Of a stretch of DNA of 64,000 nucleotides, positions 42,074-45,356 are shown one piece after another; the stretch's first letter is position 1; the number at the start of each line of letters is the position of its first letter. The notes beneath the pieces were generated by a model. That model searched no databases. It had not been told where the DNA came from and worked only from the letters and a program-made list of their open reading frames with translations. The stretch is from Janthinobacterium sp. 17J80-10 (GTDB lineage: Bacteria; Pseudomonadota; Gammaproteobacteria; Burkholderiales; Burkholderiaceae_D). Location: positions 434,001 to 498,000 of the forward strand of contig NZ_CP035311.1 in NCBI RefSeq assembly GCF_004114795.1, read 5' to 3'. Made by a program: the position numbers and the translations under genes.

Positions 42074-43312
42074 TTATTGTCGTTGCACAATAGGACTTGA
42101 AAGGGTATGTAAAAACGCGATGACGTCCCGCACTTCCTGCTCCGACAGATTGATCGGTTTGAGCTCGCTGTGACCTGCGGCAGATGCTGGCGCATTCGCG
42201 TAGTGCCGCACCACGTCCTCGAGTGAGGCCAATTGCCCCGCATGCATGTACGGTGGCCTTGAGGCGACGTTACGCAGGCCCGGTGTCTTGAACGCTGCCT
42301 TCGTCGTGTGATCGGCAGCCGCGATGAAGTTCAGCTCCTCGCAGAGTTCAGGCTTGGCATCGCTATAGCGCCCGAGGCAATTGAATTCATCGTTCATCAC
42401 CTTGTCGATTGCGGCATAACGACCCATATCCGGCGTTTTTTCGTGGCGCTGGGGAACACCCGTGTTATGAAAATGCTGATCCGTCAGCAATGGGCCGTTA
42501 TGGCAAGTGATGCAATTGCCCTTGCCGATAAAGATGCGCAGGCCGTGCTTTTCCTCTGGGCTGAGTATCTGCAGCGACGGTTGATCCCCGCTGACGACGC
42601 CCTCGACATAGCGGTCCAGGCGCGATTCTCCATGCTGCAAGGTCTTCTGATACGCGGCAAGGGCCTTGCCCATGTTGGCAAATATCCGCGATACGTCATG
42701 GCGCGCCGACTCCGGCATGGTGTTCCAGGTGGTCTTGTGCAATGGCGTGCCGGCTGGGCTGGCATGTTTCGGAAAATGCCGAAGATCCGGCATCGCGCCG
42801 AAAATCGCTTCGTAATCCTTGCGGTAATGCGCCTGCATCAGATGCGCATAGGCCAGGCGGTTGCCACCATGCTCTGCCGGGTCTTCCAGTGGCCCCAGCG
42901 CCTGCGACCAGAGGCTGTCCTTGCGTCCATCCCAGAACAGGAAGGGACTATGGTCGGCCGCAACCACCGGCATGGTCCTGCGGCTGCCGGTGCCGACGCC
43001 CAGTCCGAGCGGCGCGCCATCCTGAAAATGCTTGTCCGGCTGGTGACAGCTGGCACAGGACACGGCGCCATTGCTGCTGAATCTGCGGTCGGCAAAGATG
43101 CGCTCACCGAGATGCACGGCGGCCGGCAACGCTTCATAGGCGTTGGAGGGATCTTTCGGCGCCGGCGGCAACTGCTTCAGGCTTAACGAAGCCAAGATGG
43201 CCATCTCTTCCCGTGTCCAGCCGTCGATGTAGTCCGGCATGCCGGCCAGTGCAGCGCCGGCAATCAGCGCCGCACTGCCAGCTGCCAGCAAGGCCCCTGT
43301 AAGTTTATGCAT
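42074..43312 (-). CDS. Di-haem cytochrome c peroxidase/MauG-family protein
   Basis: A 412-residue exported haem protein with a signal peptide ending near ALA-G24. It has two haem c sites, CASCH (Cys86, Cys89, His90) and CITCH near residue 255. The blocks LFWDGRKDSLWSQALGPL and GLRNVASRPPYMHAG are typical; in the latter a Met stands where peroxidases have Met and MauG-type enzymes have Tyr. It uses peroxide in the periplasm or on a partner protein. The ATG at 43312 is taken; a TTG at 43330 overlaps the upstream stop as TTGA, so translational coupling is possible. It is the last gene of a three-gene run. Confidence 0.88.
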   Translation of the reverse strand: MHKLTGALLAAGSAALIAGAALAGMPDYIDGWTREEMAILASLSLKQLPPAPKDPSNAYEALPAAVHLGERIFADRRFSSNGAVSCASCHQPDKHFQDGAPLGLGVGTGSRRTMPVVAADHSPFLFWDGRKDSLWSQALGPLEDPAEHGGNRLAYAHLMQAHYRKDYEAIFGAMPDLRHFPKHASPAGTPLHKTTWNTMPESARHDVSRIFANMGKALAAYQKTLQHGESRLDRYVEGVVSGDQPSLQILSPEEKHGLRIFIGKGNCITCHNGPLLTDQHFHNTGVPQRHEKTPDMGRYAAIDKVMNDEFNCLGRYSDAKPELCEELNFIAAADHTTKAAFKTPGLRNVASRPPYMHAGQLASLEDVVRHYANAPASAAGHSELKPINLSEQEVRDVIAFLHTLSSPIVQRQ

Positions 43313-43326
43313 GGTTTCGGTAAAGC

Positions 43327-43800
43327 TCAAAAATGACGTTCCGCGGACGTGCCACCTTCCGCCAGGATCGCAGGCTGGATAATGACCGTATTGAAGGTGA
43401 CCTTGTCCGTGCCGTAGGTCGAATCAATCGTCAGCTTGATTTCCCACCAGCCCGGCATGCTGAATTTCATGCCTTCGAGCAGGTAACGTCCGCCGCCAAG
43501 CTCTTTTGTGACCCTGGGCTGCGTCGGGAAACCATGGCCATGCTGCGGCATGCCACCGTCGACGGTAATCCGGGCGTGCTGCACAGGTTCACCCGATTGC
43601 GACTGCAACCGGATTTCCCAGGCGTGCATCTTGTTGATGACAATCGGTTCCGCCAATGCATGCACTTTGGCGACATACTTGGATTGTGCTGTCGGCCGCT
43701 CCAGCGACAGGTTCAGGTCGGCCGGCATTGACATGCAGCCGGACGTGCCGGCCACGGCCAGGAATGCCAGGGTCGAATAAATTTTTTGAAGCTGCATCAT
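43327..43800 (-). CDS. FixH/YtkA-like exported protein, probable lipoprotein
   Basis: A 157-residue protein. Its signal-like N-terminus ends TSGC, a near lipobox with Thr where Leu is usual (Cys near residue 23). The rest is a beta-sandwich of the FixH/YtkA type: MHAWEIRLQSQSGEPVQHARI, then DGGMPQHGHGFPTQP with two His, and FSMPGWWEIKLTI. The same family often sits beside di-haem peroxidases and copper genes. The frame opens far upstream, but ATG at 43800 has GGAGCA before it and starts the signal. It may be a copper or partner protein for the peroxidase; that is inference. Confidence 0.72.
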   Translation of the reverse strand: MMQLQKIYSTLAFLAVAGTSGCMSMPADLNLSLERPTAQSKYVAKVHALAEPIVINKMHAWEIRLQSQSGEPVQHARITVDGGMPQHGHGFPTQPRVTKELGGGRYLLEGMKFSMPGWWEIKLTIDSTYGTDKVTFNTVIIQPAILAEGGTSAERHF

Positions 43801-43880
43801 TGCTCCTGCGAATAAAAGAGGGGAGGTTTGGCGTGACCGGTCCGGATCGCAAGGAGCGAACCGGTCACGTGCGCTGCAGG

Positions 43881-44030
43881 CTAGCTTTTTGCACAGGCGC
43901 ATTGGTCGCCGCAACGGCATTGCGGTCCGCACGCGCAAGTCTTTTGCCCGGCAGGTTGCTGGCAGCCGCATTTGCAGCCGGCGCCAACGCAGGGGGTGCA
44001 TTTGCAGGGGGTATTTGCAGGGGTGTTCAT
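43881..44030 (-). CDS. Metallothionein-like cysteine-rich protein, 49 residues
   Basis: A short gene absent from ordinary length-filtered gene lists. Its 49 residues contain 12 cysteines (positions 9, 11, 14, 19, 21, 23, 32, 34, 38, 40, 44 and 46), mostly as Cys-x-Cys and Cys-x-x-x-Cys, and end CRCGDQCACAKS. There are no aromatic residues and no signal peptide. This is the composition of a metallothionein, able to bind several Cu(I), Zn or Cd ions in the cytosol. GGAGATTCAC precedes the ATG at 44030. It starts a same-strand run with the FixH-like gene 80 bases downstream and the di-haem peroxidase after it. The metal is unknown. Confidence 0.75.
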   Translation of the reverse strand: MNTPANTPCKCTPCVGAGCKCGCQQPAGQKTCACGPQCRCGDQCACAKS

Positions 44031-44102
44031 GTGAATCTCCTATCGGTTGACATTGAAATGCCAGTCTAGGAGAGCACGTTGAGGCCGGCTTGAACGAAAC
44101 GG

Positions 44103-44240
44103 CTATTCTTGCTGGATGCTTGCCGCCGCGACACCAAACATACGCCGGAAGGTGCGCGAAAAATGCGCGGAATCGGCAAAGCCGCCGGCATAGGCGGCTT
44201 CGGTCAGGCTGTTGCCTGCTGCATAGTACGGCCGTACGTT
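44103..44240 (-). pseudogene. 3' remnant of a second AraC-family regulator gene
   Basis: Read on the minus strand, this encodes AAGNSLTEAAYAGGFADSAH followed by FSRTFRRMFG and stops in TAG at 44103-44105, matching the C-terminus of the intact AraC gene upstream. Before the Tyr-Ala-Ala block the fragment has only RPY, so it breaks off or has an internal deletion at that point. Against the intact gene about 11 codon differences are silent and only two change the residue, so it is a diverged functional paralogue later lost, not a fresh duplication. It lies 72 bases upstream of the metallothionein-like gene. Confidence 0.8.
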
Positions 44241-44573
44241 GTAGATGGGTTTTGAAATGACGCTTTGAGTTCGACTTGACTAATATTAACGATGTCCTAC
44301 ACTGGAAGTGCCGACAAACTCCCATAGGATGGCATATAGAGCACCATAAATTGAATTCATCCATTTGCTGGAACTGTTCGTACGGGTGGTGCGCTTAGTA
44401 AGATGCGATTTCTTACTTCTGGTTTTAGTCGGTACATTGGAAATGGAGGCGCAACACCTCTGTTTTTAGGAGCTGGCCCCGTAGGGCCAGTTTTCATTTT
44501 CCCGGACCGTGAACGACCACGCCTAGCTGGAATCCGCCGCGTTTCGTTCAGGTTGGCCAGCTTGAACAAACAG
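44241..44573. other. Intergenic region between AraC remnant and AraC gene
   Basis: About 330 bases without a supported gene. It holds a 12-bp palindrome GTACGGCCGTAC just at its edge (44226-44237) and, near 44446-44494, two tandem hairpins listed separately. Base composition is lower in GC than its neighbours. Overlapping short frames on both strands lack ribosome sites and family resemblance. Confidence 0.4.
44446..44500 (+). terminator. Tandem hairpins ending in a U-rich tail
   Basis: A small hairpin GAGG/CCTC (44446-44449 and 44457-44460) is followed by a strong 7-bp stem CTGGCCC/GGGCCAG (44473-44479 and 44484-44490, loop CGTA) and TTTTCATTTT. The second is a good intrinsic terminator on the plus strand, though no plus-strand gene precedes it, so it may end a small RNA or a lost gene. 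Confidence 0.5.
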
Positions 44574-45356
44574 CTATTCGCGCTGGATGCTTGCCGCAGG
44601 GACACCGAACATGCGCCTAAATGTTCGTGAGAAATGCGCGGAATCGGCAAAGCCGCCGGCATATGCGGCTTCGGTCAGGCTATTGCCGGCTGCATAGGAT
44701 GCAATGGCAAGTTCCAGGCGTAACCAGAGGACATAGGGCCGGAAGCGGATACCGGTTTCCTGCAGAAAGAGATGACGAAACCGTTCGGGCGAAAGATGCA
44801 CCGCATTGGCGATATCGGTAAGTGTAACCGTTGATTCAACACGATCACGCAGTACTTCAATGGCACGTGCAATGCGGTTGTCCAGGGAGCTTGCCGGTAA
44901 GGTAGGGCTTGAAGATAAAGTCGCAATCACCGCTCGTGCACGCGCAATGACTTCCTTGTCGGGGGCCTTTTCACGGTAGGCGGCTACAAGGGCGGCGATT
45001 TCGCAGTCGAGTAAGCCTTCCGGCAGGGGCGACAGTCCCGCACCGTAGCGTTCCTGGATCGTTATGCCCTCGCATGATTCGGGCTCGACAAAAATCAGGG
45101 CAACCAGCTCGCCGCGGGCCTCGAATGCGTGCGGCTGGTGTGCCGGAACGATTACTGCAGTAAAGGCCTGCCAGCCTTCGTCTGGTTGACGGAATCGCAG
45201 CGCGCCCTTGGCAAGCGCAAGCGTAATCTGGATCGCATGGTGGGAATGAAAATCCGTAGCTTCCTGGGCGCTGCCAATCCAGATACTGCCCCCGCGCCAA
45301 AGCAGGATGCGCCCGATCCCGGTTGCCTTGATACCCCCGCGTTGCCCGGAAATCAT
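44574..45356 (-). CDS. AraC-family transcriptional regulator
   Basis: A 260-residue regulator. The N-terminal cupin-like sensor (HSHHAIQITLALAKG near residues 37-52, then PAHQPHAFEA) is followed by the two-helix-turn-helix AraC domain (about 165-258), with LTDIANAVHLSPERFRHLF and FADSAHFSRTFRRMFGVPAA. It lies upstream of, and on the same strand as, the metallothionein operon, with a truncated AraC paralogue between them. Regulation of that operon is possible but unproven. The effector is unknown. Confidence 0.9.
   Translation of the reverse strand: MISGQRGGIKATGIGRILLWRGGSIWIGSAQEATDFHSHHAIQITLALAKGALRFRQPDEGWQAFTAVIVPAHQPHAFEARGELVALIFVEPESCEGITIQERYGAGLSPLPEGLLDCEIAALVAAYREKAPDKEVIARARAVIATLSSSPTLPASSLDNRIARAIEVLRDRVESTVTLTDIANAVHLSPERFRHLFLQETGIRFRPYVLWLRLELAIASYAAGNSLTEAAYAGGFADSAHFSRTFRRMFGVPAASIQRE

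Follow-up and report, generated by a model that had tools for sequence, protein, structure and literature searches.

A compact three-gene run on the minus strand of the window (the 64,000-nt stretch of the Janthinobacterium sp. 17J80-10 genome analysed here) looks like an undescribed copper-stress module made up of a Cys-rich peptide, a surface protein and a haem enzyme. Its conserved core is a YtkA-type gene followed by a gene for a MauG-type di-haem enzyme, with the peptide as an optional third member. The run is probably an operon for copper stress, whose di-haem enzyme is predicted to act chemically on its putative copper-binding partner. The features of the locus are as follows.

42074-43330, minus strand: MauG-type di-haem protein with two CxxCH motifs and Tyr377 (PF03150, AF2 model, fold matches, relatives)
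43327-43800, minus strand: putative copper-binding lipoprotein with a YtkA domain of predicted CrdA fold and the motifs MPxHxHG and FxMxGWW (PF13115, AF2 model, alignment of 76 sequences)
43832-43869, minus strand: predicted intercistronic hairpin between the peptide gene and the YtkA gene (inverted repeat, folding)
43881-44030, minus strand: Cys-rich metallothionein-like peptide of 49 aa with 12 Cys (ORF, 13-sequence alignment)
44090-44105, minus strand: conserved operator-like site TAGCCGTTTCGTTCAA, 5' of the peptide gene (relatives, genome scan)
44097-44226, minus strand: partial duplicate of the AraC 3' end, 130 nt (second copy at 44568-44697, 88%)
44574-45356, minus strand: cupin-type AraC-family regulator gene, likely controlling the run (HTH_18, E 2.8e-18; homologues)

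The three open reading frames described in the first-pass annotation (the peptide, a FixH/YtkA-like protein and a MauG/CcpA-type protein) were all present as claimed, as was the near-overlap of the last two: the TTG start of the di-haem gene at 43330 overlaps the stop of the YtkA frame, which ends at 43327. An alternative in-frame ATG for the di-haem gene lies at 43312. The YtkA frame likely starts at the ATG at 43800, giving a protein of 157 aa. The peptide gene is separated from the YtkA gene by an 80-nt gap containing an inverted repeat with 13-nt arms that are 92% complementary. The predicted hairpin has a folding energy of -27.9 kcal/mol (z -2.55; 3 of 200 shuffles were equally low), and the sole match in an Rfam search was one tRNA. 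Upstream, the two copies of the AraC 3' end are separated by 341 nt of other DNA, and the gap between the AraC gene and the peptide gene is 543 nt in the window compared with 72 nt, or 471 nt shorter, in a same-genus relative (L010). Judged from the sequence, the duplicate in the window is a derived insertion. The 344-nt insert stretch had no further copy in the genome, its sole match being itself.

Conservation of the pair was examined in named genomes by searching for YtkA-type genes with the patterns F[SHN]MPG[WQR]W[EQ] and MPxHxHG.., and the best 80 of 565 confirmed loci were analysed; since the patterns held the conserved motifs, motif conservation among these 80 is partly built in. In 70 of the best 80 of 565, the next gene 3' of the YtkA-type gene, in the same orientation, was a di-haem gene. 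As for the other ten, the di-haem gene was 0.5 to 2.7 kb downstream in three (L057, L067, L091) and a few kb away on the opposite strand in three (L054, L066, L082). Two (L081, L084) ran into a contig end with the di-haem gene not seen, and two (L040, L048) had no di-haem gene despite about 6 kb of remaining sequence. Hosts among the best 80 of 565 included Pseudomonadota, Chloroflexota, Nitrospirota and a Sphaerobacter.

A test free of this pattern bias used 34 PF13115 loci from other genomes. All seven loci with the MPxHxHG motif were beside a di-haem gene, compared with none of the 27 without it, where no di-haem ORF was found within about 1.5 kb and two loci had a one-haem ORF nearby (Fisher test, P = 2e-7, a value that overstates the case because six of the seven motif loci came from one genus label). 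A PF13115 search of relatives gave six more motif-bearing matches (the window, G003, G006, G035, G049 and G061), each with a di-haem gene, that of G035 being cut by the contig end. Combined, the motif was accompanied by a di-haem neighbour in 13 of 13 cases, under seven genus labels. The conserved core of the module is the YtkA-type gene and the di-haem gene.

The di-haem protein belongs to the CCP_MauG superfamily (PF03150, E 3.6e-36, 125.5 bits against a gathering threshold of 25.6), and both CxxCH motifs were invariant in an alignment of 66 sequences. Scores against the curated models for MbnH (TIGR04039, 121.6 against a cut-off of 362.85 bits) and MauG (TIGR03791, 151.5 against 443.85 bits) fell below both cut-offs, and filing the protein as either was rejected. 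The AF2 model (pLDDT 94) matched the folds of cytochrome c peroxidases, MauG, BthA and 6e1c, an entry titled as a MauG-like protein associated with microbial copper homeostasis. These matches bear on a rival account: the enzyme would be an ordinary periplasmic cytochrome c peroxidase that clears H2O2 under copper stress, the YtkA protein would soak up copper on its own, and the two genes would be paired solely because they are regulated together. Bacterial cytochrome c peroxidases were indeed among the best PDB relatives by sequence and by fold, and a plasmid record labels a homologue as cytochrome c peroxidase. The ligand position argues otherwise. Met275 is a haem ligand in the Pseudomonas aeruginosa cytochrome c peroxidase, and in MauG Tyr294 is a haem ligand. 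Counted along the alignment to the P. aeruginosa enzyme, Y377 corresponds to Met275 and W133 to position 94; the window enzyme thus has Tyr where classical bacterial cytochrome c peroxidases have Met at position 275. This residue was Tyr in 80 of 80 di-haem relatives with a residue there (83 aligned), and W133 was Trp in 83 of 83. In addition, across the loci surveyed the MPxHxHG motif of the partner occurs together with the enzyme gene, and the YtkA-linked enzymes form a distinct clade. In a tree of 58 rows, 57 of them different, 26 YtkA-linked di-haem enzymes formed one group (support 100/99), seven above-cut-off MbnH proteins formed a separate group (100/100), and the other 25 MauG-like rows fell elsewhere; the rows were gathered by different queries, a procedure that can make such groups look sharper than they are. 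A plain peroxidase is therefore considered unlikely. The proposal that the enzyme oxidises its partner, raised in the first-pass annotation by reference to related pairs, is compatible with the close pairing of the two genes and with a Tyr of MauG type, the chemistry being predicted. The enzyme also carries two non-haem Cys, C318 and C330, each kept in 78 of 81 relatives, which may possibly form a disulphide.

The partner protein is a member of the YtkA-like family (PF13115, E 3.3e-15, 56.9 bits against a gathering threshold of 25.9). It contains the DGGMPQHGHG segment, and Cys22 lies in a TSGC lipobox-like site. This Cys aligned with a Cys in 27 of 76 homologues; the other homologues look membrane-anchored. 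A PDB sequence search with the single protein gave no meaningful match. The best PDB fold match of the AF2 model (pLDDT 89) was Helicobacter pylori CrdA, in both apo and silver-bound forms (Z 13.4, rmsd 2.0 over 100 residues), and the family profile reached CrdA by sequence (E 0.0014). The next matches, at Z 9 to 10, were mostly P19/FetP/FtrA-type proteins, several solved with copper, and included DUF4426 and DUF4785 proteins. When counted along the profile alignment, M84, H87 and M115 corresponded to CrdA Met69, Met72 and Met99, with H87 replacing a Met. These are three of five Met proposed to form a Cu(I)-type sulfur cluster (PMC9182242). The window protein is CrdA-like by fold and by these Met positions, and differs in that CrdA is given there as lacking His (PMC9182242).

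Conservation was concentrated at the same positions. H87, H89, G90, M115 and W119 were invariant in 87 homologues, and M84 was Met in all 86 with a residue there. W118 was kept in 81 of 87 and W61 in 78 of 85. W119 was the sole Trp invariant across the pairs, yet unpaired YtkA proteins often have it too, which leaves Trp modification without special support. Conversion of Trp to kynurenine was accordingly not adopted as settled chemistry, W118 and W61 not being universal.

The first-pass annotation had proposed a metal-and-redox defence role, with Cu, Zn and Cd as candidate inducers. The metal is most likely copper, in view of the CrdA fold and of CueR-type boxes in relatives. Published CueR and HmrR signals are ACCTTCCC-5-TGGAAGGT and ACCTTCCAG-3-CTGGAAGG, lying in 19-bp spacers (PMC1526738). 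Taking the ACCTTCC palindrome in a 19-bp promoter spacer as the mark of a CueR/HmrR regulon, box-like sites were found in relatives and none in the window. A loose CueR-like pattern gave seven matches, three at YtkA or peptide genes (L061, L088, L149) and four elsewhere, and was dropped as too unspecific. The strict pattern TTGACCTT[CA]C-N5-9-G[GT]AA was scanned across 2.39 million strand-bases of fetched loci (about 1.2 Mb, both strands). Each of its eight matches was located no more than about 115 nt 5' of a gene of the module, a YtkA gene in six loci (L053, L061, L079, L088, L110, L112) and a peptide gene in two (L148, L149), although the pattern was written after seeing the loose-pattern matches and L148, so that only L053, L079, L110 and L112 are independent. 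A rescan of 1.44 Mb of loci returned the same eight boxes. The hosts were Devosia, Chelativorans, Pseudaminobacter, Mesorhizobium and two genera of the window's family, and in each of the latter the box preceded the YtkA gene in one species and the peptide gene in the other (G328/G399; G418/G154). The strict pattern had no match in the window, for which the case for copper comes from relatives and from the fold. A further point against copper is that simple motif scans identified a recognisable copper gene near only one locus among the best 80 of 565, a single P-type ATPase gene (L030).

The module might instead answer another signal, such as peroxide, thiols or a different metal, through AraC or LytTR regulators, the CueR-type boxes being a side branch. 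Loci with AraC homologues (28 of 84) or LytS genes (7 of 84) do outnumber the eight CueR-type boxes. Against this stand the CrdA fold with its aligned Met and His positions, and the presence of the boxes before six YtkA and two peptide genes in four named genera and two family genera. A signal other than copper is accordingly regarded as quite unlikely, and copper is retained as the probable signal.

The cupin-AraC gene upstream of the run, together with its operator, had not been mentioned in the first-pass annotation. Of 17 peptide loci, 13 had an AraC homologue adjoining the peptide gene, even where no YtkA gene was nearby; one of these homologues was a contig-edge fragment. The site TTAGCCGTTTCRTTCAA, or a close form scoring 14 to 17 of 17, preceded 15 of 26 peptide genes, and the other 11 scored only 9 to 10 of 17. 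Two of these low-scoring genes (L148, L149) have a CueR-type box. Another seven of them (L018, L020, L021, L022, L026, L050, L142) lack the AraC-linked site but share an CATCGAAGACATCCCGTCGTCGA-like sequence ahead of the peptide gene. A LytS gene was nearby in six of these seven, L142 being viewed to 1.5 kb.

The site model was derived from peptide genes and was then applied to YtkA genes. Of 26 AraC loci, 20 had a site of at least 13 of 17 ahead of the YtkA gene, compared with 2 of 54 others; among the 20, that in L017 is the peptide's own site, that in L031 is on the other strand and that in L030 is 443 nt away. In one locus (L096) the site preceded both the peptide gene and the YtkA gene. 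Across the 4.0-Mb genome there was one exact match, one with 2 mismatches and the rest with 3. A wider regulon in this genome was rejected, as a reversed control pattern gave 78 matches and the site 28. The cupin-AraC protein, with its conserved operator, is likely the regulator of the run, a prediction made from sequence comparison.

The peptide had 10 invariant Cys columns, and one more at 90% or above, in the alignment of 13 relatives, and is not a chance ORF, since these columns are common to the aligned sequences. It had no match to any Pfam family, bacterial metallothioneins included, or to any NCBIfam family at E 0.1, and a PDB sequence search gave no meaningful match. In searches of 392 genomes of the window's family (the YtkA and peptide searches being taken as covering the same set), the YtkA protein was found in 26 and the peptide in 16. 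The two co-occurred in 11 of the 16 peptide-bearing genomes, against 1.06 expected (P = 4e-11, kinship ignored), and of the 17 places with a peptide gene, eight, carrying six genus labels, had it immediately 5' of a YtkA gene in the same orientation. A conserved neighbourhood of the two genes, as the first-pass annotation had anticipated, therefore exists, and the outcome which that annotation named as refuting its idea, a peptide with no conserved place beside the other genes in relatives, did not occur. The core, as a correction to that annotation, is the YtkA and di-haem pair; among 84 loci, the peptide turned up in 12. That it was not found in the other 72 of 84 would suit the view that it is a chance neighbour in this genome. 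That view, already disfavoured, is highly improbable given the co-occurrence, the direct adjacency under several genus labels and the shared AraC-linked site in L096. The peptide is an optional third member of the module. DUF2938 and LytS/LytTR genes separate it from the YtkA gene in five loci (L018, L019, L020, L022, L026), and LytS/LytTR genes do so in L021. In a Cupriavidus necator strain (L040, 5700-6700), stops and a frame change disrupt the YtkA gene that adjoins the peptide gene.

From these data a working model can be proposed. The cupin-AraC activator, bound at its site, would switch on the promoter before the Cys-rich peptide gene, and the peptide would act as a cytosolic Cu(I) buffer. 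Transcription continuing through the hairpin would then yield the YtkA/CrdA-fold lipoprotein and its dedicated MauG-type di-haem enzyme. In the periplasm, the lipoprotein would bind Cu(I) through Met84, His87/His89 and Met115, and the enzyme would direct peroxide-derived oxidising power at it. The outcome may be modification of a residue in the partner, as in MbnP/MbnH and MopE, or conversion of bound Cu(I) to Cu(II). A more specific version, judged less likely than not, is that of a further, separately evolved lineage of protein-modifying di-haem enzymes, in which a MauG-type enzyme oxidises an exported CrdA-fold lipoprotein and so builds or resets a copper site, within one regulon that includes a cytosolic copper thionein.

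The module appears to be copper-type and built round the di-haem enzyme and its partner, in a layout that resembles MbnP/MbnH or MopE/SACCP. In the former (TIGR04052/TIGR04039) a di-haem MauG-like enzyme is conserved beside its partner in copper-related methanobactin operons (PMC3621798). The window pair differs: the enzyme falls below the MbnH cut-off and outside the group of seven above-cut-off MbnH proteins, and the YtkA/CrdA-like partner matched none of the NCBIfam models searched at E 0.1. MopE/SACCP and CorA/CorB of methanotrophs likewise join a copper-binding partner to a di-haem peroxidase, and the copper ligands of MopE are a kynurenine and two His (PMC3621798). As described, however, these systems are made under low copper or are copper-repressed, whereas the CueR-type boxes seen here suggest induction by excess copper. 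The window enzyme shares with MauG the di-haem fold and a Tyr at the ligand position, and departs from it in score, as given above. In mtoX-SCO1-mauG clusters a MauG-like gene adjoins copper-protein genes, as PMC5739008 describes; here, by contrast, a one-query blast of 84 loci placed a methanethiol-oxidase-like gene at a single one (L018). Methanethiol oxidase was rejected as the enzyme's partner, given its occurrence in this one locus.

A search of the open-access literature found no description of a module of YtkA protein, di-haem enzyme and peptide, which is a weak sign of novelty. Few systems are known in which MauG-type enzymes remodel partner proteins. If the model is correct, this phyla-spanning clade, with a small partner of confidently predicted fold whose motif accompanies the enzyme gene, would offer a tractable model of how a haem enzyme and a copper protein cooperate to defend the cell against metal. 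Functions would be suggested, too, for a cupin-AraC regulator and for a kind of bacterial Cys-rich peptide that the Pfam and NCBIfam models used here failed to recognise.

Several other genes recurred near the module in relatives. DUF3703 genes (PF12487) neighboured one of the three genes, YtkA, di-haem or peptide, at 16 of the 84 loci (L018, L019, L020, L022, L028, L029, L030, L032, L035, L036, L045, L050, L055, L063, L071, L073), as well as in L101, L102 and L147. In a Polaromonas plasmid, a gene annotated as DUF3703 spans the YtkA match. The methanethiol-oxidase-like gene near one Rubrivivax locus (L018, 523-1893) is one that we take to be of the SBP56 type. DJ-1/PfpI-type genes were frequent neighbours of the pair, in 15 of 84 loci, both with an AraC domain (L033, 952-1956) and without one (L054, 2986-4131).
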